From Pseudofrankia coriaricola (GTDB lineage Bacteria; Actinomycetota; Actinomycetes; Frankiales; Frankiaceae), in NCBI RefSeq assembly GCF_001854805.1, contig NZ_MBLO01000265.1, forward strand, positions 1 through 35,486: DNA of 35,486 nt. The letters are read 5' to 3'. Numbering within the stretch: position 1 is the first letter of the stretch; each line of letters starts with the position of its first letter. The notes beneath the pieces are model-generated. The model had not been told where the DNA came from. It saw only the letters and a list, made by a program, of their open reading frames with translations, and did not search any database. Positions 4,148-26,346 of this stretch are shown piece after piece. Position numbers and translations under genes: made by a program.

Positions 4148-4340
4148 CGTGCGACCTCCGGGGCCAGGGACAGCCAGCGCATCGTCGGGCCGTCGTCCGC
4201 GGAACCTACCCATCCCAGCACGGATATCCCAGAACGGGTGGCGGCACTCAGACCGACGGGTAACCAGCCAAACTCCGCCCACCGCCGCCGTGCGGCCCAC
4301 GATCCGTAACCGACGTGGGCGCGAGTTCGTCCTGGCGAGC

Positions 4341-4402
4341 TGTTCGCCCAACCCGGCCACCCGGTCTCATCTTTGTTCGCCCAACCCGGCCACCCGGTCT
4401 CA
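4341..4402. repeat. 29-bp perfect direct repeat, 33-bp period
   Basis: Bases 4341-4369 and 4374-4402 are identical (TGTTCGCCCAACC to GGTCTCA), separated by 4 nt. A weaker third copy lies at about 4413-4470: it shares CCGACGTGGGC, TCCTGGCGAG and CGCCCAACTCCGCCAC with 4308-4362. Origin is unknown. Confidence 0.7.
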
Positions 4403-4632
4403 ATTGTCCATGAGCCGACGTGGGCCGACATCATCCTGGCGAGTCACCCGCCCAACTCCGCCACACTGGGTGACGGCGCTTTGGCGCAGCGCCAAAGCAA
4501 CCACGTCCCTGGGCTGGATCCAGACCGGCCACCGCCATATGCCTCGGCCCCGAACCACGTGGGGAGCAGGGTTCCTGCCGGATCGACGGAGCTTGCGGAG
4601 TCGATCTGGGAGGTTAGGCTCAGCGCCCGAAA

Positions 4633-4657
4633 CGAGGCGAGCGCGTTCAGCGCCTCG
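4633..4657 (-). terminator. Hairpin just downstream of amt
   Basis: CGAGGCG (4633-4639) and CGCCTCG (4651-4657) form a 7-bp stem with an 11-nt loop, 4 nt past the amt stop codon. It lacks a T-run. Confidence 0.45.
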
Positions 4658-4661
4658 CTCG

Positions 4662-5906
4662 CTAGAAGTCGTAGGCCCGCTCGCCGTGCAGGGCGATGTC
4701 CATGCCCTCGCGCTCCTCGTCGACGGACAGCCGTATCCGGACGAACATGCGGATCACATAGCCGATGATGAGGGTGGCGACGAACGAGTAGCTGACGACC
4801 GCGGCGACCGCGAGCCCCTGCTTTCCGAGCAGGTCGAACCCGCCTCCGTAGAAGGCGCCGTCTTCGCCGCCGGTGTCGGACGAGCCCCAGAAGCCGATCA
4901 GCAGCGCGCCGAGGCTGCCGCCGACGAGGTGGACCGCGCCGACGTCGAGTGCGTCGTCGATACCGACCTTGCCCTTGATCCCGGTGACCGACGCGCACAC
5001 GATGCCGGCGATGAAGCCGATGAAGATCGAGCCGACAGGCGTCACGTAGCCGGCCGCCGGCGTGATCGCGACCAGGCCGGCGACCGCGCCGGAGGCGGCG
5101 CCCAGGGTGGTCGCGCGTCCGTCACGCAGCTTCTCGGTGAGGATCCAGCCGAGCAGCGCGCAGGCGGTGGCGGTGTTGGTGTTCATGAACGCGAAGCCGG
5201 CGAGGGTGTTCGCCTTCAGCGCGGAACCGGCGTTGAAGCCGAACCAGCCGAACCACAGCAGACCTGCGCCGAGCAGGACGAACGGCACGTTGTGCGGCCG
5301 GAAGTTGCCGTCCGGCCAGCCGCGCCGTTTGCCGATCACGATGGCGATGGCGATGGCCGCGGCGCCGGCGTTGGCGTGCACCACCGTCCCACCGGCGAAG
5401 TCCTCGGCACCGTGCTCGAACAGCCAGCCGGTCGGGGAGAAGACCCAGTGCGCGACCGGCGCGTACACCAGGGCGGACCACAGGACGATGAAGGTCGCGA
5501 ACGGGCCGAAGCGGAACCGGTCCGCCGGTCCGCCGGTGATCAGCGCCGGGGTGACGATGGCGAACATCAGCTGGAACGCGGCGAAGACGATCGGCGGGAT
5601 GCTCTGTGCGAGCGGGCCCGCGTACCCGGGTACCTGCTCGTTCATGTGCTGCAGCCCGGCGAAGTGCAGCCCGCCGAAGTAGGCGTTCTGGCCGCCGAAG
5701 GCGATGCTGTAGGTACAGGTCACCCACAGCAGGCTGACGATCCCCATACAGAAGAAGTTCTGCATCAGCATGCCGAGGACGTTCTCCACGCGGACCATTC
5801 CGCCGTAGAAGAACGCCAGACCGGGCGTCATCACGAGTACGAGCGCGGAGCTGGCCAGCAGCCACGCGGTATCTCCGGTGTCGAGCGCGCCGACGTCGAA
5901 CGGCAT
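4662..5906 (-). CDS. amt: Ammonium transporter (Amt/MEP/Rh family)
   Basis: This 414-residue inner-membrane protein moves ammonium or ammonia into the cell. It starts with the family block DTAWLLASSALVLVMTPGLAFFYGG. It contains the signature DFAGGTVVHANAGAAAI, carrying the first pore histidine, and DVGAVHLVGG, carrying the second, so the twin-His pore is intact. About eleven membrane helices are visible, with a short cytoplasmic C-terminal tail ending ERAYDF. ATG 5906 begins MPFDVGALDTG with a weak AGGACAGG upstream; the in-frame extension before it reads as non-coding. In many actinobacteria amt is followed by glnK and glnD; here neither is present downstream. A GlnR-like box lies about 115-150 bp upstream, so nitrogen control is likely. 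Confidence 0.95.
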   Translation of the reverse strand: MPFDVGALDTGDTAWLLASSALVLVMTPGLAFFYGGMVRVENVLGMLMQNFFCMGIVSLLWVTCTYSIAFGGQNAYFGGLHFAGLQHMNEQVPGYAGPLAQSIPPIVFAAFQLMFAIVTPALITGGPADRFRFGPFATFIVLWSALVYAPVAHWVFSPTGWLFEHGAEDFAGGTVVHANAGAAAIAIAIVIGKRRGWPDGNFRPHNVPFVLLGAGLLWFGWFGFNAGSALKANTLAGFAFMNTNTATACALLGWILTEKLRDGRATTLGAASGAVAGLVAITPAAGYVTPVGSIFIGFIAGIVCASVTGIKGKVGIDDALDVGAVHLVGGSLGALLIGFWGSSDTGGEDGAFYGGGFDLLGKQGLAVAAVVSYSFVATLIIGYVIRMFVRIRLSVDEEREGMDIALHGERAYDF

Positions 5907-8182: not shown

Positions 8183-8189
8183 GTGAGGG
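8117..8189 (+). repeat. Degenerate 14-bp tandem repeats running into the dnaN start codon
   Basis: GTGAGGA-type units begin at 8117, 8131, 8145, a decayed one near 8159, then 8169 and 8183; the spacing is 14 bp apart from one 10-bp step. The last unit supplies the GTG start at 8183. Each unit resembles a start codon and Shine-Dalgarno combined. Confidence 0.6.
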
Positions 8190-9373
8190 TAACGGTGCCG
8201 CGCGCGGAGTTCGCGGAGGCCGCCGGATGGGTGGCGCGCCACCTGCCGGCGCGGACGGTGCCAGGGCCGGCGGTGGGCGGCGGAGTGCTGATGGACGCCG
8301 CGGACAGGTTGACGCTGTCCGCGTTCGACTACCAGGCGGCCGTGACCGCGACCGTGGACGTGACGGCGACGGTGCCCGGCAGGGCGCTGCTGCCCGGTCG
8401 GCTGGTCGCCGAGATCATGCGTAGCCTGCCCGACGAGTCCGTGCGGTTCAGCGTCGACGAGGGCTGGCTGCTGGTGCGTGCCGCCGGCGCCCACTACCGG
8501 GTGCCGACCCTGCCGCTGGACGACTACCCGGCGCTGCCCGCGTTCCCGCCGCCGGTCGGCCAGGTGGACACGCTCGGCTTCGCCGCGGCCGTCAGCCAGG
8601 TCGTCCCGGCGGCGGCCAAGGACGAGACGTTTCCGGTGCTCACGGCGCTACGGCTCGAGTTCACCGGCCGCGGCCTCACACTGGTCGCCACCGACCGCTA
8701 CCGCCTCGCGGTGCGCACGATCCCGTGGCAGCCCTCGGTGCGGGCACCGGAGGCGGTGGCGCACGTGCCAGCCCGCATGCTTTCGGATCTCGCCCGGATC
8801 CCGACCGCCGCCTCCCGGCTCGCGCTCGGCCTCGGCGCGGACGACGACGGCGGCCCGCGGTTCGGGTTGTCGACCGGGTCGCGCCGGGTGGTGGTCCGGC
8901 TTGTCGACGGGACGTTCCCGCACTACCGGCGGCTGTTTCCCGAATCGGTGCCGCTGTTCGCGAGCGCCCAGGTCGCTCCGCTCGCGGCGGCGATCCGACG
9001 GGTGTCGGTGGTCGCGCCGCGCACAGGCCCTGTCGTGCGGGTCACGCTCGCGGCGGGCACCCTGACCGCGGACGTCGGCCCGGACACGGGCACCACGGCC
9101 GCGAGCGAGTCCGACCCGCTGGGTATCGCCTCGGCCACCGACTCGGTGCCGATCGACTACAACGGGCCCGACCTGGTCGCCTGGTACAACCCCAACTACC
9201 TGCTGGACGGGCTGGGCGCGGTCGACGGCGACGAGGTGACGATCGGCTTCGCCTCGACAGACCCGGACGAGGCCGCCAGCTCACCGGCCATCCTCACCGG
9301 CAAGGACGACCACGGCTACCGCTACGTCCTCATGCCGGTCGTGCGATCGGGTGGTTCCGCGGGACCGGAGTAG
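8183..9373 (+). CDS. dnaN: DNA polymerase III beta subunit (sliding clamp) homologue
   Basis: A full-length 396-residue clamp. Each of the three domains shows family landmarks: LPDESVRFSVDEGWLLVRAAGAHYRVPTLP pattern in domain 1, LVATDRYRLAVRTIPW and the DGTFPHYRRLFPE motif in domain 2, and YNPNYLLDGL plus the C-terminal YRYVLMPVV, which forms part of the partner-binding pocket. It should encircle DNA and tether polymerases. There is no dnaA, recF or gyrB nearby, so this is probably an additional copy rather than the oriC-linked one (inference). GTG 8183 follows GAGGACGGGG by a few bases. The 3' end overlaps the convergent LysR gene by 52 bp. Extra clamps in actinobacteria can serve specialised polymerases or confer resistance to clamp-targeting antibiotics such as griselimycin. 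Confidence 0.9.
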   Translation: MRVTVPRAEFAEAAGWVARHLPARTVPGPAVGGGVLMDAADRLTLSAFDYQAAVTATVDVTATVPGRALLPGRLVAEIMRSLPDESVRFSVDEGWLLVRAAGAHYRVPTLPLDDYPALPAFPPPVGQVDTLGFAAAVSQVVPAAAKDETFPVLTALRLEFTGRGLTLVATDRYRLAVRTIPWQPSVRAPEAVAHVPARMLSDLARIPTAASRLALGLGADDDGGPRFGLSTGSRRVVVRLVDGTFPHYRRLFPESVPLFASAQVAPLAAAIRRVSVVAPRTGPVVRVTLAAGTLTADVGPDTGTTAASESDPLGIASATDSVPIDYNGPDLVAWYNPNYLLDGLGAVDGDEVTIGFASTDPDEAASSPAILTGKDDHGYRYVLMPVVRSGGSAGPE

Positions 9374-10305
9374 ATGTTGGGGGCGGGGTGGACGCCAGGG
9401 GGGAGCATGTCGGCCGCCGCCGCGTTGGCGACGAAGTCGACGAGGGTGGCGCGCAGCTCGCGGGCCGCCCTAGGCGGCTCGACGTCGCGCCGGTGGGCCA
9501 GGCCGATCGTTCGGTGCAAGCCGGGAGGGGCGAACGGCGTCGTCCGCAGCGGCTGCCGGAAGGCCACCATGCTCGGGATCACGGCGATCCCGAGGCCCGC
9601 CATCACGAAGCCGCAGACGGCGTCCATCTCGCCGCCCTCGACGGCGAACGTCGGATCGAACCCGGCGGCCCGGCACGCGCCCACCGTGAACTCGCGCAGG
9701 TCGTAGCCCCGGCGGAACATCACCAGCGGGCGGTCGCGCAGGTCGCTCACCGCCATGCGGGTGGCGCGCACCGGCGGCGGGCCGTCGGGGGAGGAGATGA
9801 CAACGAGGTCCTCGCGCAGTAGCGGCGTGGTGGCCAGCGCCGGGTCGCTGCCCTGCAGCGGCAGGATGATCAGCGCCAGGTCGAGCGCGCCGACGGCGAG
9901 CTCGCCGACGAGGTCGCGCGAGCCGCCCTCCTCGACGAGCAGCCGGATGCCCGGGTAGCGCTGGCGGAACAGCCGCAGCACCTCGGGCAGCATCCCGGTG
10001 CACAGGCTCGGGGTGGCGCCGACACGGACCTTCCCGCGGCGCAGGTCCGTCAGCTCCTGGACCTCGCGGCGGGCGGTGTCGGTGTCCGCGAGGATCCGCC
10101 TGGCCAGCGGCAACAGCGCCTCACCGGCCGCGGTGAGTGTGATATTCCCCCTAGCCCGGTTGAACAGCGGGCTACCGAGCTCGGTCTCCAGCGCCCGGAT
10201 CTGCGCGGACAGTGACGGCTGGGCTACGTGAACGCGTGTAGCGGCCCTGGTGAAGTGCTTTGTCTCGGCCACAGCGACGAAGTAGGCCAGCTGATGCAAC
10301 TGCAC
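9322..10305 (-). CDS. LysR-family transcriptional regulator next to sdhCAB
   Basis: A 327-residue regulator. The N-terminal winged helix-turn-helix reads QLHQLAYFVAVAETKHFTRAATRVHVAQPSLSAQIRALETELG in order, typical of LysR proteins, followed by FNRARGNITLTAAGEALL and a two-lobe effector domain (GKVRVGATPSLCTGMLPEVL and onward). GTG 10305 gives the usual LysR N-terminus; the longer in-frame extension reads into the promoter. It is divergent from sdhC with 83 bp between starts, so control of the succinate dehydrogenase operon and of itself is likely. A T-N11-A dyad sits 10 bp upstream of its start. The effector is unknown. Its 3' end runs 52 bp antisense into dnaN. Confidence 0.9.
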   Translation of the reverse strand: MQLHQLAYFVAVAETKHFTRAATRVHVAQPSLSAQIRALETELGSPLFNRARGNITLTAAGEALLPLARRILADTDTARREVQELTDLRRGKVRVGATPSLCTGMLPEVLRLFRQRYPGIRLLVEEGGSRDLVGELAVGALDLALIILPLQGSDPALATTPLLREDLVVISSPDGPPPVRATRMAVSDLRDRPLVMFRRGYDLREFTVGACRAAGFDPTFAVEGGEMDAVCGFVMAGLGIAVIPSMVAFRQPLRTTPFAPPGLHRTIGLAHRRDVEPPRAARELRATLVDFVANAAAADMLPPGVHPAPNIYSGPAEPPDRTTGMRT

Positions 10306-14112: not shown

Positions 14113-16305
14113 GTGGCGACTGCTCGGTTTGATGGGTCGCCCGCGCCCGGCGACAGGCGTGTCTCGCCTGCCGCCGCGACGGCGGACCCGGTCGACGGCG
14201 CCGAGGCGGCTGGGGACGGGGCTGCCGACATGACTCGAGCTGGCGACGCGGCCCGCGGGCCCGACGCGGCCGGTGGGTCCAGGCCGGCTGGTGGGCCCCC
14301 CGTGGCTGGTGGTGCCGGGTCGGCTGGCGAGCGGGAGCCGGCTGGTGACGCGCCTTTCTCAGCGTCAGCGCGGCTGGTCGTGGGTGAACGGCTCTCGCCG
14401 CGGGCGCGGCTCGCCCGCCTGGCCGGAGGCCCCGAAGGCGAGCCGGCGCCGGCCGCGGAGACAGGCCCCGGCGGCGACGGCGAGGAACGCCCCGCCGACG
14501 CGCCGGCCACGACCGCCCTCCCACGCCCACGCCGCAGCCTCGCCCAGGGTGGCGCCAGGGCGGCGCGCGTTGCGGCTGCCCTACCAGGCCCGGTCACCGA
14601 GCCGAGCCAGCTCGCTGTGCCAGCCCAGTCCGCGGAGCCGGCCCGGCCCGCGGAGCCGGGCTCGGCCGCGGCGAACGACGCCGCGGGCGTCGATCCGGCC
14701 GGCGGGCCAGCCCTTGCCGGCGGCGCCGCCGGGGAGTCCGAGCCCGATGACGCGGCCGCCGAGCTGGACGACGGGGACGGCTCGGACCTTCCACCAGAAC
14801 TGAGCCCACGCGGGGAGAACGATGAGCGCCGGCGGCGCGGACTGGCGAGGGCGCTGCTCCTCGGGCTCGCGGGGATCGTGTCCTGCGCGCTGTTCCTCGT
14901 CATCGGCCTCGGCTACGGCGCGACGAAGTACTACGACTCGCGGGTCGACCGGACCGATCTGAGCGACGGCGACGTCGAGGGCACCCGCCCGCCGCAGATC
15001 CCGCATGGCCGGGAGGTCTGGCTGCTGGTCGGCTCCGACGTGCGGACCGGTTCCGATGCGGCCGACGTGGGCGGCGCCCGCTCGGACACGATGATGATCG
15101 CGTATCTCGGTGCCGACGAGAAGACGACCCTCGTGTCGATCCCACGGGACCTGAAAGTCAGAATTCCGGCCTATACGGATTCCAAGGGCAAGCGGCACGC
15201 CGCGCGTACCAACCGGGTCAACGCGGCGTTCAACGACGGCGGTCCCGCCCTGCTGCTGCGCACTCTGGAAGACGTCACGAATCTGCGTATCGATCATTTC
15301 GCCGAGATCGACTTCAACGGCTTCAGGACGATGAGCAGCGTCCTCGGCGGCGTCGAGGTCTGCATGGTGAAGGACCCCTACCGGGACCCGTTCAAGGATG
15401 ACCAAGGGCGGAGGCGGGTCTCCACTAACCTCGACGACTCGATGTCGGGCTTCCACGGTAAGGAGGGCGTCAACCTCCTGTCGGGCGACAACGCGCTCGC
15501 CTTCGTCCGCCAGCGGCATGGCTTTCCGAACGGCGACTACACCAGGGTCCAGCGGCAGCAGGCTTTCCTCGCGGCAGTCTTCCGCAAGGTCAAGAGCGGC
15601 GACCTGCTCACCAACCCGGGGAAGCTCACCGGGTTCCTCAACGCCGTCACCGAGTCCGTGACGGTCGACTCGGGCACCGACCTGAACGACCTGAAGGTGC
15701 TTGCCGAGCGGATGCAGGCGATGAGCGCCGGCCAGGTCACCTTCACCACGATCCCGCTCTCGGGGGCCACCAGCGGCAGCGGGCAGGCCTACTACGCGCT
15801 CTACGACCCGGCTACGGTACGCGCTTTCTTCGCGTCGATCGTCTCCGAGACCGGTGGCCAGGGCTCCGCTGGAACGGGCCCAACGGCGCCGACGGCGGCT
15901 CCGACCCCGATCGTCGCGCCGAGCCAGGTCAGGGTACGGGTGCTCAACGGCACGACGACCGGCGGCATCGCCAAGACCGTGGCGAGCAAGCTGCGGAACG
16001 CCGGCTACGACGTGGTCGGCTATGGCGTCGCCGACGACCGGAACCAAGCCCAGACCGAGGTGCGCTTCGCCCCGGGGGACGCCGCGGCCGCGAACCGGCT
16101 GGTCGCCGATGTCTCCGGCGCCCGTGCCCTGTCCGGCGCGGGCTCCGGGGCGGCCGGCGAGATCGTCCTCGTCGTCGGCAACGACCTCGTCGACGGTGAC
16201 ACCGCCGTCATCGCCTCGCCGGCGGCCAGGGCGTCCGCGGGCACCGCCGCCACGCCGTTCTACACCCAGGCACCGGTCTCCGCCGACAACCGCTGCGTGA
16301 AGTAG
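14113..16305 (+). CDS. LytR-CpsA-Psr (LCP) family cell-wall glycopolymer ligase with long cytoplasmic tail
   Basis: A 730-residue membrane protein. Residues 1-240 are a disordered Ala/Pro/Gly-rich tail, followed by one membrane helix (about 245-268) and an external LCP domain (about 300-490). Motifs include LLVGSDVRTGSD, ARSDTMMIAYL, TLVSIPRDLKVRIP, NAAFNDGGPALLLRTLE and LAFVRQRHGFPNGDYTRVQRQQAFL, covering the conserved Arg and Asp residues that bind the polyprenyl pyrophosphate substrate. A LytR_C domain (VRVRVLNGTTTGGIAKTVASKLRNAGYDVVGYG) lies at about 605-700. LCP proteins attach secondary polymers to peptidoglycan. GTG 14113 is the longest start, with GGAGG 13 nt upstream; ATG 14230 is an alternative. 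The tail is unusually long for the family. Confidence 0.9.
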   Translation: MATARFDGSPAPGDRRVSPAAATADPVDGAEAAGDGAADMTRAGDAARGPDAAGGSRPAGGPPVAGGAGSAGEREPAGDAPFSASARLVVGERLSPRARLARLAGGPEGEPAPAAETGPGGDGEERPADAPATTALPRPRRSLAQGGARAARVAAALPGPVTEPSQLAVPAQSAEPARPAEPGSAAANDAAGVDPAGGPALAGGAAGESEPDDAAAELDDGDGSDLPPELSPRGENDERRRRGLARALLLGLAGIVSCALFLVIGLGYGATKYYDSRVDRTDLSDGDVEGTRPPQIPHGREVWLLVGSDVRTGSDAADVGGARSDTMMIAYLGADEKTTLVSIPRDLKVRIPAYTDSKGKRHAARTNRVNAAFNDGGPALLLRTLEDVTNLRIDHFAEIDFNGFRTMSSVLGGVEVCMVKDPYRDPFKDDQGRRRVSTNLDDSMSGFHGKEGVNLLSGDNALAFVRQRHGFPNGDYTRVQRQQAFLAAVFRKVKSGDLLTNPGKLTGFLNAVTESVTVDSGTDLNDLKVLAERMQAMSAGQVTFTTIPLSGATSGSGQAYYALYDPATVRAFFASIVSETGGQGSAGTGPTAPTAAPTPIVAPSQVRVRVLNGTTTGGIAKTVASKLRNAGYDVVGYGVADDRNQAQTEVRFAPGDAAAANRLVADVSGARALSGAGSGAAGEIVLVVGNDLVDGDTAVIASPAARASAGTAATPFYTQAPVSADNRCVK

Positions 16306-16579: not shown

Positions 16580-17029
16580 CTACCAGGACGAGGTCGTAAC
16601 GATCTTGCCGCTTGGGCCCCAGCCCATCGCATGTGACAGTGTGCCCCTGTCCCAGAAGGCGGGCGTCTTGCAGTTGCCACCGTTCGAGGGGTCGTCGGGC
16701 CAGCCCGAGCCCTCCGCATTGGTGGTGTCGTTGTGAATGTTGCAGCCGAGCTCGTCCCCCAGATTCTGACCCGGGTTGTCGCGAACGGTCTTGCCCCAGA
16801 CCGACTGACAGGTCGCGCTGTACCAGAGCTCGACCCGGAAGCCGATCCCACTGTCGGTCGCGTGCGTGTAGTAGATCAGGTCGCCGTCGTTGCCGTACCC
16901 GCCGTTGATGCCGCAGGGCGGCGAGGGCGGCGCGACGGCCTGGGCGGCGGGCATCGCGGCCCACGAGACGACGGCCGCCGGGATCGCCATGGCCGTCGTC
17001 GCGGCCGCGGCGCGTGTTACGCTGCGCAA
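16580..17029 (-). CDS. Small secreted four-Cys protein, DUF2690-like (paralogue 1)
   Basis: A 149-residue exported protein. A Sec signal peptide (Arg-containing start, Ala-rich core, cleavage near MPAAQAVA about residue 32) precedes a mature domain of about 115 residues. Its core RVELWYSATCQSVWGK matches the '[VL]ELrYS-x2-C-x2-aWgr' pattern that I associate with DUF2690. Four cysteines remain after cleavage (PPCG, ATCQ, GCNIHND, GNCK), enough for two disulfides. The same core recurs in three genes at 22-24 kb, but this copy is the most diverged and lies on the other strand. TTG 17029 has a strong AAAGGAG 8 nt upstream. An 18-bp palindrome lies 75 bp before the start. Function is unknown. Confidence 0.75.
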   Translation of the reverse strand: MRSVTRAAAATTAMAIPAAVVSWAAMPAAQAVAPPSPPCGINGGYGNDGDLIYYTHATDSGIGFRVELWYSATCQSVWGKTVRDNPGQNLGDELGCNIHNDTTNAEGSGWPDDPSNGGNCKTPAFWDRGTLSHAMGWGPSGKIVTTSSW

Positions 17030-17643: not shown

Positions 17644-18093
17644 TCAGCCAGTACTGCCATAGACGTAACGGATAGGCGGAGTGGGCCCGTAGAAGGCGGT
17701 GACCGAGGCGATCCGTGATTGTTCGGTAAAGGTCAGCACGTCGAGTCCGGTGAGGCTCGTCCGGCCGGCGTGGTCCTGGAAGGCCCATTCCAGCCGGGCG
17801 TACCTGTGGTGGAGGTCGACGGCACTGGTACGGACGGGGCGGAAGCCGGGGTAGGCCCGGTGAACCTCCCCGATGAGATCGGTGTACTCGTCGAGGCCGA
17901 CGGCGGTGCCCAGCGGGCTGGCGTACTCGACGTCCGACGCGCAGCAGGCCGCGAGCAGGTCGCGCCGTCGGGTGGGGTCGGGCTCTGTCCAGGCGGACAT
18001 CCCCTGCGCGAGCAGGCTCGCGATCGTGTCGGTGACGGCGGGGTCGACGCCTATGCCGGAGACGATGTCGTGGCGGGCGACGCTGCTGGTCAT
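17644..18093 (-). CDS. NTF2/SnoaL-like protein of the acyl-ligase operon
   Basis: A 149-residue soluble protein. After a start region MTSSVARHDIVSGIGVD it shows a SnoaL/nuclear-transport-factor-2-like pattern: DPTRRRDLLAACCASDVEYASP, then GLDEYTDLIGEVHRAYPGFRPV, then YARLEWAFQDHAGRTSLTGLDVLTFTEQSRIASVTAFYG. The last block is the typical 'G-x-D-V-x-x-F-x-x-G-R-I' ending of the fold. Members act as isomerases, cyclases, hydroxylases or small-molecule binders, so the reaction cannot be told. Its ATG overlaps the stop of the ligase gene (ATGA), so it is probably translated with it and works in the same pathway. Confidence 0.75.
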   Translation of the reverse strand: MTSSVARHDIVSGIGVDPAVTDTIASLLAQGMSAWTEPDPTRRRDLLAACCASDVEYASPLGTAVGLDEYTDLIGEVHRAYPGFRPVRTSAVDLHHRYARLEWAFQDHAGRTSLTGLDVLTFTEQSRIASVTAFYGPTPPIRYVYGSTG

Positions 18094-19721
18094 GAGGCGC
18101 CGAACCGGCGGGCCGCCTCGGCGCGCTGCAGCTTGCCGGATGGTGTCTTCGGGATCGAGCCCGGCGGGAGAACGCGGGTCGTGACCGGCCACAGCCCGAT
18201 GGTGGCCAGGAGATGGTCGGCGACGGCGCGCTCCACGGACGTCGGATCCGGCGCTCGTGACTCCACGGCTATGCCGAGGCCTTCGCCGAAACCACCCGTC
18301 CGCTGGACGGAGAACGCGATGGCGTTGCCGGCGCGAACACCGGGCACCTGCTCGGCGGTCCGTTCGACCTCTTCCGGGTAGATGTTGCGGCCTCCGACGA
18401 TGATCAGATCCTTCTGCCGGCCGCAGATCACCAGCTCGCCGTCGACGAGGTAGCCGAGGTCTCCCGTGCGCAGCCAACCGTCGACGACCGGGCCGGGCGC
18501 GGAGGTGGCGCCGCGGTAGCCGCTGGTGACGGCGGGTCCGCGGACCTCGACCTCACCGACCGTGCGGTCGGGTAGCACGTGGCGGGTGGCCGGGTCGGTG
18601 ACCCGGATGGTGGTCTCGGCGATGGGCGGCCCCAGCAGGGGCAGGCGCCGGGTCGGCCGCCCGGCGCGCGGCGGCCGGGCGGCGCCGGCCGCCGTCAGGT
18701 CGTCGGCGTCGATCTCGTCGACGCGGAGCCCCCCGAGCGGGGCGGGGATCGTCACCGCGAGCGTGGCCTCCGCGAGACCGTAGCCGGGCAGGAACACACG
18801 CGGGTCGAGGCCGTGCGGCCGCGCGGCTGCGAGGAACTTCTCGATGACGTCTGGGTCGATCGGTTCCCCACCCGACATCGCCTGCGTGACGCGGGAGAGG
18901 TCGAGGCGGGGGCCGAGGGGAAGGAGCCGCGCGGCTACGGCGTACGCGGAGGCCGGGCCGATGATGGTCTGGACGCGGTGGCGCGCCGCCTGCCGCAGCC
19001 AGCTGGCCGGGTCGGCCAGATATTCGGTGGGTGAGGTCAGGAAGAGGTCGCACTGACCACAGGTGAGCGTGGCGGCGAGGACCCCGACGAGGCCCATGTC
19101 GTGGGAGAGCGGCAGCCAGGACAGCATCCCGCCATGCCGCTGCCCGTGGCCGATCGCGGCCGCGGTGCCCCGCAGGTTGGCCGCGAGGTTGGCGTGGCTG
19201 ACCAGCACGATCCTGGGCTCGTCCGTCGTGCCGCTCGTCAGCTGCAGGATCACCGTGTCGCCGTCGGCCACCTCGGGGCGCCGCCAGTCGGACACCGGGC
19301 CCGGCTCCAGCACCCGGTCGAGCGGAGTCACCGCACGGCCGGTGGCGGCCAGCGGCGCGGCCAGATCCTCGAAGGGCGGGCCGACCAGGACCAGCGACGC
19401 TTCCAGCCGATCCAGATGCCGCGCGGTCGCGGACAGGAATGCGTCGACGTCCATCGTCCGCGCCGGGGTCGGCAGCACGGCGACGCCCGCGCCGGCGAGC
19501 CAGACCGCCGCGATGGCCGTGACCGCGGCCCGGGAGGTCAGCCCGAGGACGGCGACCGTCCGGCCCGGGCCGATGCCGTCCTCCTGCAGACGGGCGGCCT
19601 GACGCAGCGCTACCTGATAGAGCTCGCCCCAGCTCACACGGTCGTCGCCTTCGGGGGAAAGAAAGGTGACCGAGCCGTCCTCTCTACTGGCCCGTTCCAT
19701 GGCGTCCAGCAGGTAGACCAT
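18090..19721 (-). CDS. Fatty acyl-AMP ligase (FAAL-type adenylate-forming enzyme)
   Basis: A 543-residue ANL-superfamily enzyme that should activate a fatty acid as acyl-AMP and load it on an acyl carrier protein. FAAL-like blocks are seen: WLPLSHDMGLVGVL (202-215), SPTEYLADPASWL (230-242), YGLAEATLAVT (314-324), RTGDLGYLVDGELVICGRQKDLIIVGGRNIYPEEVE and the A10 motif PKTPSGK with Lys about 530. The A3 phosphate loop is unusual: TSGTTDEPR (162-170) in place of the usual TSG[ST]TGxPKG, so a Gly and the Lys are replaced. The operon context (carrier protein upstream, NTF2-like gene overlapping downstream) supports acyl loading onto the carrier. ATG 19721 is the start. FAAL rather than CoA ligase is inferred from these blocks. 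Confidence 0.88.
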   Translation of the reverse strand: MVYLLDAMERASREDGSVTFLSPEGDDRVSWGELYQVALRQAARLQEDGIGPGRTVAVLGLTSRAAVTAIAAVWLAGAGVAVLPTPARTMDVDAFLSATARHLDRLEASLVLVGPPFEDLAAPLAATGRAVTPLDRVLEPGPVSDWRRPEVADGDTVILQLTSGTTDEPRIVLVSHANLAANLRGTAAAIGHGQRHGGMLSWLPLSHDMGLVGVLAATLTCGQCDLFLTSPTEYLADPASWLRQAARHRVQTIIGPASAYAVAARLLPLGPRLDLSRVTQAMSGGEPIDPDVIEKFLAAARPHGLDPRVFLPGYGLAEATLAVTIPAPLGGLRVDEIDADDLTAAGAARPPRAGRPTRRLPLLGPPIAETTIRVTDPATRHVLPDRTVGEVEVRGPAVTSGYRGATSAPGPVVDGWLRTGDLGYLVDGELVICGRQKDLIIVGGRNIYPEEVERTAEQVPGVRAGNAIAFSVQRTGGFGEGLGIAVESRAPDPTSVERAVADHLLATIGLWPVTTRVLPPGSIPKTPSGKLQRAEAARRFGAS

Positions 19722-19788
19722 TTGTGTGTCAGCCTCTCGTGAGGGGTGATCTTCAGGCCCTTGACGGCTGTGCGAGACGGGAAGGACG

Positions 19789-20064
19789 TCAACCAGCCGG
19801 GTGGGACGCGCTGGGCATCGGCGCCGTGATGAGCCGCTCGAGCAGGCGGCTCATCGACACGCAGGTCTCGAAGTTCGCGTTCGCCAGATCGGCGCCTTTG
19901 ATCAAAATTCCGAACTCGTCGTTCAGCCTCCCGATGAGGCGGATCAGCTCCATGGAGTCCAGGAGCCCCGACGACAGCAGGGGCTCGTCTTCCGGGAGAT
20001 CCTCCTCGACGTCGACGAACCCCTCCGAGACCAGCATCGCGCTCAACTGCGCCGCATACCGCAT
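19789..20064 (-). CDS. Acyl carrier protein
   Basis: A 91-residue carrier protein with the usual length and an acidic four-helix pattern. GLLDSMELIRLIGRLNDEFGI contains the Ser (about residue 37) that would receive the phosphopantetheine arm. ATG 20064 is chosen because GGAG lies 8 nt upstream and the resulting length fits the family; upstream ATGs at 20088 and 20106 lack good ribosome sites. It is the first gene of a minus-strand unit, 67 bp before the acyl-AMP ligase, which is its likely loading partner. Confidence 0.85.
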   Translation of the reverse strand: MRYAAQLSAMLVSEGFVDVEEDLPEDEPLLSSGLLDSMELIRLIGRLNDEFGILIKGADLANANFETCVSMSRLLERLITAPMPSASHPAG

Positions 20065-21017
20065 TCTGTTGTCTCCACGTGGCGTCATGAGTATGTCCGC
20101 GGGCATGGGAATATCGACCCAGGCGCGGCGGGTCGTGTAAGGTTAAATTGTGGTGAAATGTGTCCGCGCGATCGGTGGCCGTCTTTGGTGCGGGCCTTGG
20201 CCGCCCTCGGCACCTGAGGCGCGCGGGCGTTTTGTTGTTGTGTGGTGTGCCGAGCCGGTGGTACTGCGCGTCAGTGGTTCCCGGCGCGAGTCACTCCCGT
20301 TCGTCCATATCGTCTCGTGCTCCGTCCGCGACGCCGCGGGCGCAAGCGGGTCGGGCGAGCCTGAATCCCGGTTCGGAGCCGTGCCGAAAACGGTGCCCGG
20401 CCTTTCGCCAGATCTGAGCGTGCGGGCGGGTCAAATGCTTTGACTTGCCTTGGTGGATGGCGCTCCATTGCTGGCGCCACGGACTGAACCGCTGGCGGAC
20501 CACCGACGGGGGCCGGGCCGGCGCCATGCCGTCGGCCCGGCCACATCTATACCACGCAGCGGCGCCGCGATGTAGCTGAAGTCGTGCGGCCCTGCCTGTG
20601 GGGCATCCATCGGATACCGTCGGTCGTCGCGAGCGAGCATGGCACGAACGCAGTTTCGTGCGCGCGGTGGCTTCGGGAACGCCTGTCACTGATGGTAGCC
20701 GTGGGCGATGCCGGATTCAGGGCTCTATCCGCTGGTCAGCCCCTCGGGCGTCCAGCTGGTCCGAAGATCAAATCACGACTCCTCGGCGTGACACATCACG
20801 GTGTGTATCTATTAACGGGTCGAGGTGGGCCCATTTTTTGCCAGTGCTACCTACTGGACACGAATCGTCCGCATGTGCCATCCTGTTGACGCAGCGCAGA
20901 TCATCGCTTAGGCGCAAAGATCATTCGCCCACCGGACGGTATGCAGGGCTTGCGCTCGCTATGGCGCTGGCGTGTGGCAGGTACATGCAGTCGGACAACT
21001 GTTTGAGGACCGCGACC
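20065..21017. other. Long divergent non-coding region between the two carrier-protein genes
   Basis: About 950 bp without a gene I can support. Short frames here lack recognisable domains and ribosome sites. It contains an inverted repeat with GGCCGGGCC arms (20511-20519, 20534-20542), a small dyad CGTGA-CACA-TCACG (20787-20800), and two AGATCAT sites 20 bp apart (20898, 20918). Around 20810-20880 it is markedly AT-richer than its surroundings. Promoters for both divergent units should lie here. Confidence 0.5.
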
Positions 21018-21896
21018 ATGCAGATGACCCAGGCGGACTTCGAGGGCCTCCTTGCCGCGAGGCTCGGCTGTGAGCCGCCACAGGTTTCGTCCACGGCGGT
21101 GCTGGAGGATTCATTCGGGCTGGACTCGTTCAGACGCCTGGAACTCATAACCATCCTCGCCGAGGCGGGGATTGAGCTGACGGAAAAAGAGATCACCTCA
21201 CTGAGAACCGTCGGGGATCTCTACGATGCCTACAGCAGGGCCCAGGTGCGGCCGGACGACGTGGGTTCGCTTCGTGCCTCGACTCCCGTCGCCCCCGACG
21301 CGGACGTCACTGGTTCGGTCATGCCGGCGCCGCGGGCGACGAAGCGTTTCAGGTTCGAGCCGATCTCGCCCGAGCTGATGCCGTTCATGTATCGGATGGC
21401 GATCGATCCCGATGTCGGCCACCGGTGGAAGTTCCGTGGGTTCGTTCCGGACTTCGAGAATTTCTGCGCCGGCTTCAAGGCCGGCGCCCTGGTGCAGTTC
21501 GCGGTGATCTCGAACGAGACTCGGCAGCCCGTTGGGCAGGTTGTCTGCTACAACTGCGATCATGTGCAGCGTTTTGCGTTCTTCGCGGCGCTGTTCGTGC
21601 CCGAGCTCGTCGGCACAGGTATTCCCGTCGAGGCGTCGGACGTGTTCGTTCGGTATCTGTTCGCGACCTGGGACCTCAGGAAGATCTACATGGAGGTCCC
21701 AGCCTTCAACTTCGGCTCGTTCAGCAGCGGGGAGGGCCGCCAGTTCGAGGTCGAGGGTATTCTCAAAAATCACAGCTACTATGCGGGCAGGCACTGGGAC
21801 CAGTACGTCCTGGCCATCTATCCTCCGCCTGAGCACGGTCGGCCGAACGATGGCGGCGGTCGTGTGTTCACCGGAGGTTCCTCGGGGGTCCGCTGA
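21018..21896 (+). CDS. Acyl carrier domain fused to a GNAT acyltransferase
   Basis: A 292-residue two-domain protein. Residues 1-75 form an acyl carrier domain: LEDSFGLDSFRRLELITILAEAGIEL with attachment Ser about 37. A linker (75-107, Ala/Pro/Asp-rich) leads to a GNAT domain (about 108-275): FRFEPISPELMPFMYRMAID, QFAVISNETRQPVGQVVCYN, then FFAALFVPELVGTGIPVEASDVFVRYLFATWDLRKIYMEVP, the usual RimJ/RimL-like order. The fold could transfer an acyl group held on its own carrier domain to an amine, instead of using acetyl-CoA (inference). ATG 21018 has GAGG 9 nt upstream; the longer open frame before it reads as non-coding. It is divergent from the carrier-protein/acyl-ligase unit, which would supply the acyl group. 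Confidence 0.85.
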   Translation: MQMTQADFEGLLAARLGCEPPQVSSTAVLEDSFGLDSFRRLELITILAEAGIELTEKEITSLRTVGDLYDAYSRAQVRPDDVGSLRASTPVAPDADVTGSVMPAPRATKRFRFEPISPELMPFMYRMAIDPDVGHRWKFRGFVPDFENFCAGFKAGALVQFAVISNETRQPVGQVVCYNCDHVQRFAFFAALFVPELVGTGIPVEASDVFVRYLFATWDLRKIYMEVPAFNFGSFSSGEGRQFEVEGILKNHSYYAGRHWDQYVLAIYPPPEHGRPNDGGGRVFTGGSSGVR

Positions 21897-22131
21897 CGCG
21901 GATTCCTCGCGGGCCTAGGCTGTCGAGGACCTGCCGCAATAGCCATGGGTGGGCAGTTGTCGGGATAGGCACGAGTGTGCGCGGGCGTCGAATTCTGTCG
22001 GGGCACCGCCGCGGCGAGGCTGGAAACTCTTTCGTGCTCCGGGTCGGCATGCGGTGCTGATTCGGTGTCGGTCCGACCAGGTTCTGTTCGGACGGTTCGT
22101 TCGGCGGACCGTGCTACGAGAAGGAGTTGAC

Positions 22132-22572
22132 GTGCGCGTCTGGCGTGGTGGGTTGATGCTTGCCGGGACGGTGGTGCCGGCCGTCGTTGGGTCGTGGGTG
22201 GCTGGTCCGGCGGCCGAGGCGGCCTCGTCCTGGAACTCGGTGTCCGAGTCGCAGAGCGCGCAGCTGGCGTGCAGCGAAAGCGACGGCGTCAAGGTCGGCA
22301 GCGCCGACTACCAGGGCACCGAGGTCGGGCAGCTCTGGTATAGCTCCAGCTGTCGTACCGTCTGGGGCAAGTGGCTCGGCGATGACGAGGCGTCGCTGGG
22401 CTCGCCTACGGGGTGGCTTGTCCGGTCGGACAACTACAACACCTCGCACGACATCGGCTGCGGATTCGACGGCTGGTGCGTGACGGATCACATCAATGAC
22501 GCCGGTTACACGACCAAGCTGCAGGTGCAGCTGTTTTGGCACGGCCCGATTGTCTCGACCCCGGCCTATTGA
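22132..22572 (+). CDS. Small secreted four-Cys protein, DUF2690-like (paralogue 2)
   Basis: A 146-residue exported protein. The signal peptide runs RVWRGGLMLAGTVVPAVVGSW to about AAEAA (residue 28). The mature part contains ACSESDGVKVGS, the core QLWYSSSCRTVWGKW, RSDNYN, a Cys-Gly-x4-WC pair and HINDAGYTT near the end. Four cysteines allow two disulfides. GTG 22132 has AAGGAG 5 nt upstream. The gene is nearly identical at DNA level to paralogue 3 over its first 190 bases, so the two arose by recent tandem duplication. No function is known; export points to the cell surface or medium. Confidence 0.85.
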   Translation: MRVWRGGLMLAGTVVPAVVGSWVAGPAAEAASSWNSVSESQSAQLACSESDGVKVGSADYQGTEVGQLWYSSSCRTVWGKWLGDDEASLGSPTGWLVRSDNYNTSHDIGCGFDGWCVTDHINDAGYTTKLQVQLFWHGPIVSTPAY

Positions 22573-22667: not shown

Positions 22668-23114
22668 ATGCGTGTCTGGCGTGGTGGGTTGGTGCTTGCC
22701 GGGACGGTGGTGCCGGCGGTCGCGGGGTCGTGGGTGGTTGGGCCGGCGGCCCAGGCGGCCTCGCCCTGGAACTCGACGTCCGAGTCGCAGAGCGCCCAGC
22801 TGGCGTGCAGCGAAAGCGACGGAGTGAAGGTCGGCAGCGCGAACGACTCCGTCAGCGGCATGGAACTCGGGCAGCTCTGGTACAGCCCGAGCTGTCGTAC
22901 CGTCTGGGGTAAGTGGCTCGGCAACGCCGACCATCCCATCGGTCCCCCCAAGGGCTGGCTTATCAGGTCGGACGGCTATTCGACGCCGCATGAAATGTGC
23001 TGGGACGAAAATCAGTGGTGCAGCACCATCCACATCAATGATGCCGGCTACACGACCAAACTCCAGGTCGAGGTGTACCCCGGGGGCCCCATCCGTTCGA
23101 CCCCGCAGTACTGA
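22668..23114 (+). CDS. Small secreted four-Cys protein, DUF2690-like (paralogue 3)
   Basis: A 148-residue tandem copy of the preceding gene, 95 bp downstream on the same strand. The signal peptide (RVWRGGLVLAGTVVPAVAGSW, cleavage near AAQAA) and SESQSAQLACSESDGVKVGSA are almost unchanged. The middle and C-terminal parts differ: the core is QLWYSPSCRTVWGKWLG, with a Cys-Trp-Asp and a WC pair, then IHINDAGYTTKLQVEV. Such divergence after a conserved first half suggests selection on the exposed part. ATG 22668 has GAGGAGAGGAG just upstream, the best ribosome site of the family. Confidence 0.85.
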   Translation: MRVWRGGLVLAGTVVPAVAGSWVVGPAAQAASPWNSTSESQSAQLACSESDGVKVGSANDSVSGMELGQLWYSPSCRTVWGKWLGNADHPIGPPKGWLIRSDGYSTPHEMCWDENQWCSTIHINDAGYTTKLQVEVYPGGPIRSTPQY

Positions 23115-23344: not shown

Positions 23345-23800
23345 GTGTCTCCTCGGAATTACGCTGGGTGGACAGCCGTCGCGGCACTGGGCCTGTCCAC
23401 TTCTTCCCTGCTGGGTGCATCCGTCGCACAGGCAGCCACTTCGTCGGCAAACACTCCGGAGGGAGTCGCCGGTGGGGCGGCGGCCCTTGCTTGCGATGAG
23501 ACCGACGGCTACAGGGTCTACAGCGCGAACTACAGCAACGCTACGGCGGAGCTTTGGTACAGCCCGAACTGCCGTACCGTGTGGGCGAAGATGCAGGCTT
23601 CGGGATCCAGCTATCCTGGATGGGGCCTTCGTGCTCAGGTTATCAGAAGTGACGGCGTCTCTTCTGAATGCCGCCTGGACGGTCCGCCGCCGTGCGCGAC
23701 CGGCCATCTGAATGACGCCGGATACACGTCTTACGCGAAGGGCCTTTTCGACGTTACACCGGGCGGACAAACAATTTATTGGACCACTCCGTCCTACTGA
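23345..23800 (+). CDS. Small secreted four-Cys protein, DUF2690-like (paralogue 4)
   Basis: A 151-residue exported relative, 230 bp beyond paralogue 3. The signal peptide (VAALGLSTSSLLGASVAQAA, cleavage about residue 31) is unlike that of copies 2 and 3. The mature part keeps LACDETDGYRVYS, the core AELWYSPNCRTVWAKM, IRSDG, a second pair of cysteines and GHLNDAGYTS. GTG 23345 has GAAGGG about 8 nt upstream, and GCTATTCTT at 23313-23321 could be its promoter -10 region. GC content is visibly below that of the neighbouring housekeeping genes, which hints at separate ancestry. Confidence 0.82.
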   Translation: MSPRNYAGWTAVAALGLSTSSLLGASVAQAATSSANTPEGVAGGAAALACDETDGYRVYSANYSNATAELWYSPNCRTVWAKMQASGSSYPGWGLRAQVIRSDGVSSECRLDGPPPCATGHLNDAGYTSYAKGLFDVTPGGQTIYWTTPSY

Positions 23801-24786
23801 ATCCTCGGGATTCCAGGGCGTAGTTTCGCGTTTTGCGAATCAGGCGGCCAGGATGGTCCGCCCGGGTTCGCCGAATTGATCAGGCTGTTCCACAGCCTGG
23901 CAAGGGCACGTTCGGAGAGGTTTTCCCGGTTGCGGCCTGGGAGGTTACGGATCTTTCACCCGGGGTCGCTGTCGAGTCCGCGCCGGACTCCCAGCAAGGT
24001 CGTGGCGCGGCGGACCTCGCCAGCGCCGGCACTGCCGGGAATGACTCGGTGAACGACCGCCTTCCGAACAGCGGCTCCTGGCAGTATTACCGGCGCTTTG
24101 ACCTCCGGCTATTGGGGAAGGAGAGTGGGGACTCGGCCCGCGAGGCCTTTCGCGGAGCGTGACATCGCTGACCCTTTGTCACTGGTCGTCGAGCGAAGGT
24201 TGGCCCAGGTCTTTCGTGCCCTGGCCGGATGTGATCGTGGCTGACCTTCCACTCTTGTTGATGTTGAGTTGTACCGTTCGGCCGGGGGTGGCCGCGGCGG
24301 GATGCCCTTGCTGTCGCGCGGGGTGGGAGCCCGGCTCACGTCCGAGGCGGCGTTTCTTCCGATCGGCGGGGTGGTCGGCGGGGTGGGACGTCGGTGGGTC
24401 GGGTCATCCGGAGCGGGCAGGGCGCGCGAGGTGGTGATCGCCCGGACGGCGAGTGGTGTCCAGGGCGGTGGGCGGTCAGGTGCGGCACGGTCTGGCGGGC
24501 GTGGCGGCCGGCGAGCCAGAACAGCCGACGGCGTAGTCATCTCGGTTCCCAGCGCCGCGCTGGCTGGTTGGGCGGGGAGAGCATCTGGGGCCTGGGCGAC
24601 GAGTCGAGGGCGAGCGCGGCGAGGGCGCACCGGACCTCGCGCCCGCCATCTCGGCGGGCCCACGGGCGACGCCCGCGAGCACCGCCAGGTCAAGATCGAC
24701 AAATGGTGAAGATGGTGCGTACCGGATGAAACGCCTCGTTTACCATTATCGTCGGGGTACCTGAGGCGAACCGAGGAGACGTGGTC
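23801..24786. other. Non-coding gap before LCP gene 2
   Basis: Nearly 1 kb without a gene I can support. Frames on both strands are Arg/Pro- or Gly-rich shadows with no domain and no ribosome site. Close to the LCP start are an imperfect inverted repeat (AATGGTGAA near 24703 and TTTACCATT near 24739) and a 12-codon open frame at 24727-24765 that ends just before the LCP ribosome site. Confidence 0.5.
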
Positions 24787-26346
24787 GTGCCAGGAGAAGT
24801 GCCGCTTCCCTCCCACCTGAGCCCGCGAGGTGGCAGGCGCGGCCGGCCGCGACGCGGGCGGGTTCCCGGTGGTCGGCTCGGCTCCGGGCTGCTGGCGCTG
24901 ATCTCCGCCGCCATACTGCTGGTCTGCGCCGGAGGATGGGCGCAGTACACCTACGCCAACGGAAACGTGGGCCACGTCCGGCTCGACCTGGGAGGCGATC
25001 GACCGCCCACCGAACGCGGTGTGGCGAACTATCTGCTCGTTGGTACGGACAGCCGCGCGGGCACCGGCGACGAGTACGGCGGCTCATCGGTCGTCGGCCA
25101 GCGGTCGGACAGCACGATCCTGATCCACATGGCCAAGAACGGGGAAACGACGATGGTCTCGTTCCCACGGGACACCCTCGTCATCATTCCCGAGTACACC
25201 GACGCGGCCGGCAAGACTCACAAGTTGCACAAGGGCAGGTTCAACTCGGCCATTTCCGACGGCGGGCCCTCGCTGCTGGTAAAGATGATCGAAAGCCTTA
25301 CCGGAATGCGGGTCGACCACTACATCTCCGTCGACCTCGCGGGGTTCAAGAAGATCACCGATGCGATCGGCGGTGTCGACGTCTGTGTGCTGCCGTCGGA
25401 CTTCAAGGACCACTTCAAGGATGACTTTGGTGTGTGGCGGCTGAGCACCAACACCAAGGACTCGATGAGCGGCTGGTCCGGGGGCCCGGGCATCGTGCAT
25501 GTCAACGGCGAGCAGGCACTGGCGTTCGTCCGCCAGCGGCACGGTTTCCTCGCGGGCGACATCGCCCGGATCAACCGCCAGCAGCAGTTCCTCGGTGCCG
25601 TGTTCCGCAAGGCCACCAGCAGCGACGTGCTGACAAATCCGATCAAGTCGACGGCACTGATCAAGGCCGCGACCGATGCGCTCGCCCTCGACGAGAACAC
25701 CTCGCTCGATGACCTCAAAGACCTCGGCCTGTCGATGAAAGGCATGGCGGCGGGGACGATGCACGTCGAGACGCTGCCGACGCGCTCGCCAGGACTCGCG
25801 GACGGCGGAAATCCGGCGAATGGAACGTTGCCTGGCTACGGCGCGGTACTGCTCTACGACCCGGTCGACCTCGCGAAGATCGTCGTCCCGCTGGGCGGGC
25901 ATGTCGACGGTGTCACTCCCGCTGGCACCACTGCGCCGGCCACGCCGGATCCCGGGGCGACTCCAGGTCCTGTCACGGTTCCGCCCGCGCAGATCAGTCT
26001 CGATGTCTACAACGGTTCCACGAGGTCCGGGCTGGCTTCGACGGCGGCGACCGCTCTGACGCGCGAAGGCTTCCGCGTGGGAAGCACCCTCAACGCCGAC
26101 CCCCGGAACTACACGACGTCGCGGGTGCTCTATGGACCCGGCCAGCAGCAGGCCGCGTGGACCGTGCAGGCGGCGGTCCCCGGCGCGATCACCCGGGCTG
26201 ACCCGACCATCACCGGGATCCACCTCATTCTCGGCGCCGAGTACACGACGGTCGTCTCCCCGATGACCGCGGGCGCCACGCCTGCCGCCGGCCCGGCACC
26301 TGCCGCCCCACAGGGCCCACCGCCACCCCCCAGCTGCACCCTGTAG
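24787..26346 (+). CDS. LytR-CpsA-Psr (LCP) family cell-wall glycopolymer ligase, second copy
   Basis: A 519-residue protein with a short cytoplasmic N-terminus, one membrane helix (about 33-56), an LCP domain (about 80-265) and a LytR_C domain (about 400-490). Motifs: NYLLVGTDSRAGTGDE, RSDSTILIHM, TMVSFPRDTLVIIP, NSAISDGGPSLLVKMIE and LAFVRQRHGFLAGDIARINRQQQFL. It resembles the LCP protein at 14.1 kb, even in the FKDDFG...STNTKDSMSGW loop, but lacks the long N-terminal tail. GTG 24787 lies 8 nt after GAGGAG; GTG 24781 is too close. It should join a polymer from a lipid carrier to peptidoglycan outside the membrane. The two LCP genes bracket the acyl-transfer and secreted-protein genes. Confidence 0.92.
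   Translation: MPGEVPLPSHLSPRGGRRGRPRRGRVPGGRLGSGLLALISAAILLVCAGGWAQYTYANGNVGHVRLDLGGDRPPTERGVANYLLVGTDSRAGTGDEYGGSSVVGQRSDSTILIHMAKNGETTMVSFPRDTLVIIPEYTDAAGKTHKLHKGRFNSAISDGGPSLLVKMIESLTGMRVDHYISVDLAGFKKITDAIGGVDVCVLPSDFKDHFKDDFGVWRLSTNTKDSMSGWSGGPGIVHVNGEQALAFVRQRHGFLAGDIARINRQQQFLGAVFRKATSSDVLTNPIKSTALIKAATDALALDENTSLDDLKDLGLSMKGMAAGTMHVETLPTRSPGLADGGNPANGTLPGYGAVLLYDPVDLAKIVVPLGGHVDGVTPAGTTAPATPDPGATPGPVTVPPAQISLDVYNGSTRSGLASTAATALTREGFRVGSTLNADPRNYTTSRVLYGPGQQQAAWTVQAAVPGAITRADPTITGIHLILGAEYTTVVSPMTAGATPAAGPAPAAPQGPPPPPSCTL

Follow-up and report, generated by a model that had tools for sequence, protein, structure and literature searches.

How might a carboxylic acid be activated, held on a carrier and passed to an amine by a handful of proteins, with neither a polyketide synthase nor a nonribosomal peptide synthetase involved? 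The question is raised by four genes on contig NZ_MBLO01000265.1 of Pseudofrankia coriaricola (assembly GCF_001854805.1), a stretch of 35,486 nt, called the window below, within an 11.2-Mb genome. The genes encode a stand-alone acyl carrier protein (ACP), a fatty acyl-AMP ligase (FAAL), a SnoaL/NTF2-like protein and a fusion of an ACP domain to a GNAT domain (Table 1). We find that the FAAL, ACP-GNAT and NTF2 genes are one conserved unit, associated beyond chance. We also consider it moderately probable that the four genes form a compact acyl-transfer module, in which the FAAL loads the fused ACP, the SnoaL-like protein tailors the chain and the GNAT domain makes an amide.

Arrangement and recurrence of the genes

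The gene layout proposed in an initial annotation of this DNA proved exact. The ACP, FAAL and NTF2 genes form a minus-strand unit, with a 67-bp gap between the first two and a 4-bp ATGA overlap between the last two, and the divergent plus-strand gene does join a carrier domain (Pfam PP-binding) to a GNAT domain (Acetyltransf_3). The domain matches given for these four genes in Table 1 all lie above the Pfam gathering score. In the fusion the carrier domain occupies approximately residues 5-77 and the RimJ/SpeG-type GNAT domain approximately residues 108-270; its start codon at 21018 was chosen by alignment, and the open frame extends up to 20598.

The ACP-GNAT protein has matches, some of them weak, in 33 of 58 genomes (its own included) at E 1e-3. 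Among 20 stretches around the better matches, 16 contain a FAAL of the same kind and 14 an NTF2 gene (the NTF2 queries spanned 17659-18093, without the last residues of the protein). The trio is complete in 13 of them, and in nine of these 13 the genes run ACP-GNAT, FAAL, NTF2 on a single strand. Profile searches were run on 36 genomes, 22 from the window's own family (own genome included) and 14 others; they scored the best candidates of a first look only, and we placed the FAAL- and NTF2-clade cut-offs at gaps in the score lists. The FAAL clade has 14 full-length genes above 750 bits, the next score being 517 bits, and 13 of them have an ACP-GNAT gene within about 5.2 kb; the exceptional one (genome G005) is on another contig than that genome's ACP-GNAT gene, but it adjoins an NTF2 gene. 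All 15 genes of the NTF2 clade (above 130 bits, next 92 bits) adjoin a GNAT gene or a FAAL gene, two of the latter being fragments. By genome, GNAT and FAAL are both present in 12, GNAT alone in one (G011), FAAL alone in none and neither in 23. The absences are scattered within genera, and the concordance gives a Fisher value of 1e-8, uncorrected for kinship.

A pattern-based, non-exhaustive scan of 84,980 species genomes yielded 50 loci, which fall in Frankia, Parafrankia, Pseudofrankia, Micromonosporaceae, Actinophytocola, Yinghuangia, Acidimicrobiales, Thermoleophilaceae and other actinobacterial metagenome-assembled genomes (MAGs). ACP and GNAT share one frame in that order in 35 loci and in the order GNAT-ACP in two; 13 have neither. 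A FAAL lies within 4 kb of the GNAT in 30 loci and an NTF2 gene within 6 kb in 20. The distribution of the FAAL is unequal: it lies within 4 kb of 29 of the 37 ACP-fused GNATs versus one of the 13 others (L086, cut at a contig end). Nine GNATs of the 50-locus set, for which no carrier was found, have no FAAL beside them, which fits a FAAL that serves the fused carrier. The Fisher test of 29/37 against 0/9 omits L061 (frameshift), L086, and L088 and L094, where free ACP genes adjoin the GNATs; the nine include one pair of copies (L095 and L096) and two short contigs (L100 and L103). Acidimicrobial relatives have the reversed domain order beside a FAAL. GNAT-ACP fusions are found in L140 and in L091 and L093, each of the latter two directly followed by a FAAL gene (both Pfam domain scores of L093 are just under cut-off). 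In Yinghuangia (L060) it is the NTF2 gene that overlaps the ACP-GNAT gene by ATGA. Across 33 modules GNAT and FAAL distances are correlated (Mantel r 0.81, species kinship not corrected). When 396 genomes of the phylum were sampled, 26 (own included) had matches at 1e-10, many of which span part of the GNAT domain only.

Some genomes hold two or three copies of the module. Frankia sp. AgB1.9 (L035) has an intact module of a type with a cytochrome P450 gene beside a remnant of the window's type (3429-4948 and 9659-10180), where every one of the four genes (ACP, FAAL, NTF2, ACP-GNAT) is either broken or truncated. Loss of all four as a set is further evidence for a single function. A second ACP-GNAT gene with an NTF2 gene is present in P. 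coriaricola itself (contig C6, L053, 9750-12371), with no FAAL in the 19-kb stretch fetched.

The fused domain is the core carrier

The initial annotation made its proposal depend on the four families occurring together in other genomes. FAAL, ACP-GNAT and NTF2 do so; the separate ACP rarely does, accompanying them in the window, in L034 and as a remnant in L035/L058. Its matches are confined to four of 58 genomes, own included: G001 has a 55% identical protein, G003 a fragment and G019 two weak matches (26-31%). Among the 30 FAAL-bearing loci, separate ACP-like matches occur only in L058, which is on the same contig as L035, and both lie in the decayed copy. Because the separate ACP so rarely co-occurs, we take the fused ACP as the core carrier; the stand-alone ACP is a local addition, most modules having the fused carrier only. 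The carrier serine is intact in both proteins, and in the fusion D36-S37 is invariant among 16 aligned ACP-GNAT proteins (genes with an internal stop, such as that of L048, were excluded from this set).

Ligase, transferase and NTF2-like protein

The best NCBIfam model for the ligase is PRK07768 (546.9 bits, cut-off 572), followed by the MbtM and PRK09192 FAAL models. With the exception of PRK07768, FAAL-type models outscore both fatty acyl-CoA ligase (FACL) and amino-acid adenylation models, and the closest PDB sequence is EcFAAL (3pbk, 5.8e-62). The FAAL-specific insertion presumably sits in the segment after the YGLAE motif, where the alignment with 3pbk, made with no FACL control, has no long gap. 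By family models and closest structure, then, the enzyme is probably of the FAAL type rather than an FACL or an amino-acid adenylating enzyme.

In the AlphaFold model of the fusion (pLDDT 78.7) an ACP helix bundle is joined to a GNAT fold by a linker of low confidence. The model's top Foldseek match is the iterative lasso-peptide N-acetyltransferase 9iy3, and most of the 50 matches listed are SpeG polyamine N-acetyltransferases; the top structural neighbours are thus amine N-acetyltransferases. In Pfam the domain matches Acetyltransf_3 above and Acetyltransf_4 below cut-off; no match to a FeeM-type family appeared in the Pfam and NCBIfam scans. The CoA-pyrophosphate loop of GNATs, which we take to be [QR]xxGx[GA], is degenerate in the 16 aligned proteins, its last glycine (G201) alone being invariant. 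Together with the invariant ACP serine, this suggests that the donor would be the ACP thioester and not CoA.

For the NTF2-like protein 3dxo is both the closest PDB sequence and the best Foldseek match (1.3e-13) of the AlphaFold model (pLDDT 87.4). Other structural matches include the Diels-Alderase SdnG, SnoaL-like proteins, limonene epoxide hydrolase and ketosteroid isomerase. R88, D93, H95 and H96 are invariant in 12 aligned proteins, the window's included, and these conserved Arg, Asp and His-His residues argue that it is an enzyme, which would act on the acyl chain.

A proposed pathway and the points against it

In the pathway that we favour, the FAAL would adenylate a fatty (or related) carboxylic acid and load it onto the phosphopantetheine of the GNAT-fused ACP. 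The SnoaL-like enzyme, in some relatives with a P450, would modify the ACP-bound chain, and the GNAT domain would then acylate an amine from the ACP to which it is fused, the product being an N-acyl amide. In P. coriaricola the separate ACP could be a second carrier, perhaps holding the acyl group during tailoring. The acyl substrate, the order of the steps and the amide product are what we infer from the kinds of protein encoded. The route from ligase to carrier to GNAT without synthase or synthetase, as first suggested, stands in outline, given the pairing of FAALs with ACP-bearing GNATs and the Pfam scan of 21 window proteins (part of the window's open frames), in which no polyketide synthase or nonribosomal peptide synthetase domain was found besides the two carriers; its fatty-acid substrate and amide product are predicted.

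Two neighbours found in relatives bear on the kind of product. Downstream of the NTF2 gene in L035-L038 and L048 lies a gene of one family (F4), of which the member scanned (L037) is a P450. In Micromonosporaceae and Actinophytocola a large divergent gene of another family (F12) adjoins the FAAL in L075, L079, L080, L081, L083 and L085 and the fusion in L089; the member scanned (L075) is a SARP-type regulator.

Several observations weigh against this pathway. The ligase's top model, PRK07768, bears the name long-chain-fatty-acid--CoA ligase. Eight of the 37 ACP-fused GNATs lack a FAAL within 4 kb, some of them being near contig ends, and in the 50-locus set no NTF2 gene was detected in the Micromonosporaceae and Actinophytocola loci. 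GNAT- and FAAL-nearest neighbours disagree for L070, L084 and L037/L038, and 59 of 99 top-three neighbours are shared. No gene making a dedicated amine was recognised in the window. Finally, at the position of the SpeG tyrosine, presumably the general acid, all 16 aligned proteins have Gly, Ala or Val, and judged from these residues catalysis must differ from that of SpeG or be lost.

Secreted neighbours and a possible protein acceptor

The acceptor might instead be a protein. Downstream of the fusion in the window stand three tandem genes for small DUF2690-like proteins with predicted signal peptides, and a fourth, weakly similar one lies downstream of the NTF2 gene (Table 1). The first matches only its own tandem (three genes) in the 36 genomes at E 0.001, a search that divergent copies could escape, as the fourth protein did; the fourth also gave no tblastn match in the sets of 20 and 50 loci. 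The idea that these proteins are a conserved Frankiaceae partner is thus unsupported, the first one matching its own genome alone among the 36. The lysine of a W[GA]K motif is invariant among the four when aligned.

Predictions of secretion were made with a home-made signal-peptide predictor that was re-tuned once after a weaker first run, and the Fisher values of these comparisons ignore the relatedness of loci. The stricter first version called 23 of 129 neighbours of the 50 loci secreted versus 23 of 199 controls. After re-tuning the counts were 35/115 versus 33/232 overall (L096, a copy of L095, included), 24/53 versus 16/112 outside Frankiaceae and 11/62 versus 17/120 within that family. 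Twelve later loci gave 11/31 versus 12/86, and this is the only held-out run, since the adjacency criterion used below was fixed after it; the set is not fully independent, as L134, which is in the 11/31 count, is 93% identical to L080 over 2.4 kb. When only directly adjacent, co-directional genes are counted (L096 being dropped), 13 of 22 outside Frankiaceae are predicted to be secreted versus 13 of 74 controls, and in the further 12 loci 8 of 15 versus 9 of 58, L134 adding one gene that is not secreted; pooled, this is 21/37 versus 22/132. Frankiaceae show no such excess (2/23 versus 11/81), and secreted neighbours as a general rule were rejected on this account. The secreted partners are diverse: an AMIN-like protein and an I36 inhibitor are among those scanned, and others were read by eye. 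In L034 a gene upstream of the ACP on the same strand encodes a large protein with Golvesin_C and GDSL domains, which has a homologue in L035. Two further loci have genes for secreted proteins next to GNATs of the family studied here: in an actinomycete MAG (L095, 810-4890) a secreted protein, a SnoaL protein, two GNATs and a sulfotransferase form a run in which no ACP or FAAL was found, and in a Thermoleophilaceae MAG (L097, 7251-9804) the GNAT is tightly flanked by two paralogous secreted proteins (family F38).

Protein lipidation may account for the secreted neighbours, and so may joint regulation of exoproteins and a small N-acyl product; they may also have some other cause. Under lipidation the FAAL would charge the fused carrier, and the GNAT domain would pass the acyl group to a lysine or the N-terminus of the small secreted protein encoded next door (here the DUF2690-like proteins of the tandem) before it is exported, similarly to HlyC or CdiC. 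The excess of adjacent secreted genes outside Frankiaceae, the tandem with its invariant lysine and the Golvesin_C/GDSL protein upstream of the ACP all speak for this. Against it stand the missing excess in Frankiaceae, which hold most of the complete modules, the variety of the putative partners, the P450 and SARP neighbours, which point to small molecules, and the GNAT domain itself, which has no Pfam match to the HlyC family at E 0.1; the history of the predictor and the near copy among the later loci weaken the counts as well. We regard lipidation as unlikely.

Other alternatives concern the roles of the ligase and the GNAT domain. The ligase might load an amino or beta-amino acid, with the GNAT acetylating or acylating the carrier-bound residue from an acyl-CoA. 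The stand-alone ACP has the cispentacin ACP AmcB as its best NCBIfam match (1.6e-7, below cut-off), then DltC, and the GNAT is nearest to acetyl-CoA enzymes; however, the ligase scores 319-329 bits with FAAL models versus 122 bits with the amino-acid adenylation model, and the degenerate pyrophosphate loop argues against a CoA donor, so that we hold this to be quite improbable. Fused GNAT and ACP domains occur in polyketide loading modules, and the malonyl-ACP decarboxylase YiiD has a GNAT domain. The window's GNAT could likewise load or decarboxylate a starter unit on its own ACP, and the available part of a published study does link a malonyl-ACP decarboxylase to GNAT (PMC8666670). That role is very improbable here: no ketosynthase or adjacent polyketide synthase was found among the 21 scanned proteins, the 60 PDB sequence matches listed include no such GNAT, and the FAAL would be redundant. 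Least of all do we expect the GNAT to be a catalytically dead domain that merely docks or presents the carrier. The replaced SpeG tyrosine would agree with this, but 24 of the 28 invariant columns in the 16 aligned proteins lie in the GNAT domain, R136, W137, Y178, E226, N231, W260 and D261 among them.

Other features of the window

Table 1. Coordinates of the module genes and of the genes for DUF2690-like proteins in the window.
Feature	Position	Strand	Evidence
SnoaL_2/NTF2-like protein, probable acyl-chain tailoring enzyme	17644..18093	-	149 aa; Pfam SnoaL_2 1.9e-6
FAAL-type fatty acyl-AMP ligase	18090..19721	-	543 aa; Pfam AMP-binding 1.5e-47
Stand-alone acyl carrier protein, accessory carrier of subgroup	19789..20106	-	105 aa; PP-binding 1.7e-6; serine in DSM motif
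ACP-GNAT fusion	21018..21896 (most likely)	+	292 aa; PP-binding 6.7e-6 (residues 10-70), Acetyltransf_3 5.6e-6 (110-235)
Small secreted DUF2690-like protein, first of tandem three downstream of fusion	22126..22572	+	predicted signal peptide; DUF2690 E=0.033, below cut-off
Secreted DUF2690-like paralogue, 71% identical to first	22668..23114	+	predicted signal peptide
Secreted DUF2690-like paralogue	23345..23800	+	Pfam DUF2690 23.8 bits, cut-off 23; predicted signal peptide
Small secreted protein, weak DUF2690 similarity, downstream of NTF2 gene	16580..17029	-	DUF2690 E=0.0032, below cut-off; 29% identity in alignment; predicted signal peptide

The flanks of the window encode succinate dehydrogenase, two LytR-CpsA-Psr (LCP) family proteins, SurE and acyl-CoA enzymes, and a homologue of the DNA polymerase III beta-clamp lies at 8183-9373. 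The two LCP genes (14113-16305 and 24781-26346) lie on either side of the module. A different ACP-GNAT gene, in Parafrankia EUN1f (L040/L056), adjoins an LCP gene that is 72-73% identical to the second of these; LCP genes stand beside ACP-GNAT only in these loci and the window, and we treat them as neighbours. Pst phosphate genes, seen in one set of Frankia loci only, were rejected as module members. The prolyl-tRNA synthetase (ProRS; family F7, TIGR00408) beside the Frankia module was rejected as a resistance gene or partner because ProRS family I is the sole ProRS above cut-off in G012, G016 and G029 (genus g6); families I and II coexist in G000, G001, G002 and G006.

Relation to known systems

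The initial annotation's view that such a pathway is unknown from described systems was too strong. In SB-203208 biosynthesis (Streptomyces sp. NCIMB40513) the adenylating enzymes SbzB and SbzL load the ACPs SbzG and SbzK, and the GNATs SbzC and SbzI transfer the cargo, SbzI to an amine and SbzC by O-acyl transfer; CoA is no substitute for the ACP (PMC6331615, in the part available). In both cases adenylating enzyme, ACP and GNAT are encoded together, and the Sbz enzymes work by the same logic. However, the available part of that paper has the ACPs and GNATs cloned and assayed as separate proteins and mentions no fusion, and it describes amino- or sulfamoyl-acid cargo and acceptors from a larger cluster, whereas the window has a fused ACP and GNAT, a FAAL-like ligase and a SnoaL protein that is a recurrent partner. 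The N-acyl amino acid synthase FeeM, as cited there, belongs to the GNAT type and draws its substrate from an acylated carrier protein; the window differs in its Acetyltransf_3/SpeG-like GNAT, its fused carrier and its dedicated FAAL.

The lysyl acyltransferases HlyC and CdiC form amides, dependent on acyl-ACP, on a secreted protein encoded beside the enzyme (PMC8510554). The accessible portion of that article names neither a dedicated FAAL nor a fused ACP; the window has both, and its secreted partners are candidates. Selidamide GNAT maturases such as PhaN attach fatty acyl groups to Orn or Lys side chains of ribosomal peptides, and for phaeornamide the excerpt at hand gives primary metabolism as the source of the fatty acid (PMC9505594); in the window no proteusin-type precursor was noticed, no dedicated search having been made. 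Other operons group GNATs, acyl-CoA ligases and ACPs around tRNA-synthetase-like peptide ligases, with predicted lysine acylation, and no fusion is named in the available text (PMC2922099). The term GNAT is absent from the main text of a 2025 FAAL review (PMC11837247, in the version available), and carrier-GNAT fusions are not mentioned under six spellings in the open-access literature searched. The acyl-transfer logic is therefore known, and the fused version with FAAL and SnoaL, with its spread, was not found in that literature; the module is best read as a version of ligase-ACP-GNAT acyl transfer.

The module occurs in plant-symbiotic Frankia and in several other actinobacterial lineages. 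Its carrier fusion offers a clean handle for biochemistry, and the lipidation hypothesis can be tested directly on the recurrent secreted neighbours; if that hypothesis were true, the module would amount to an actinobacterial version of the HlyC/CdiC principle that has its own source of fatty acid. If the proposed pathway to a small amide holds, these bacteria would turn a free carboxylic acid into an amide by a very small and self-contained route that needs no nonribosomal peptide synthetase or polyketide synthase and in which the transferase bears its own donor arm.

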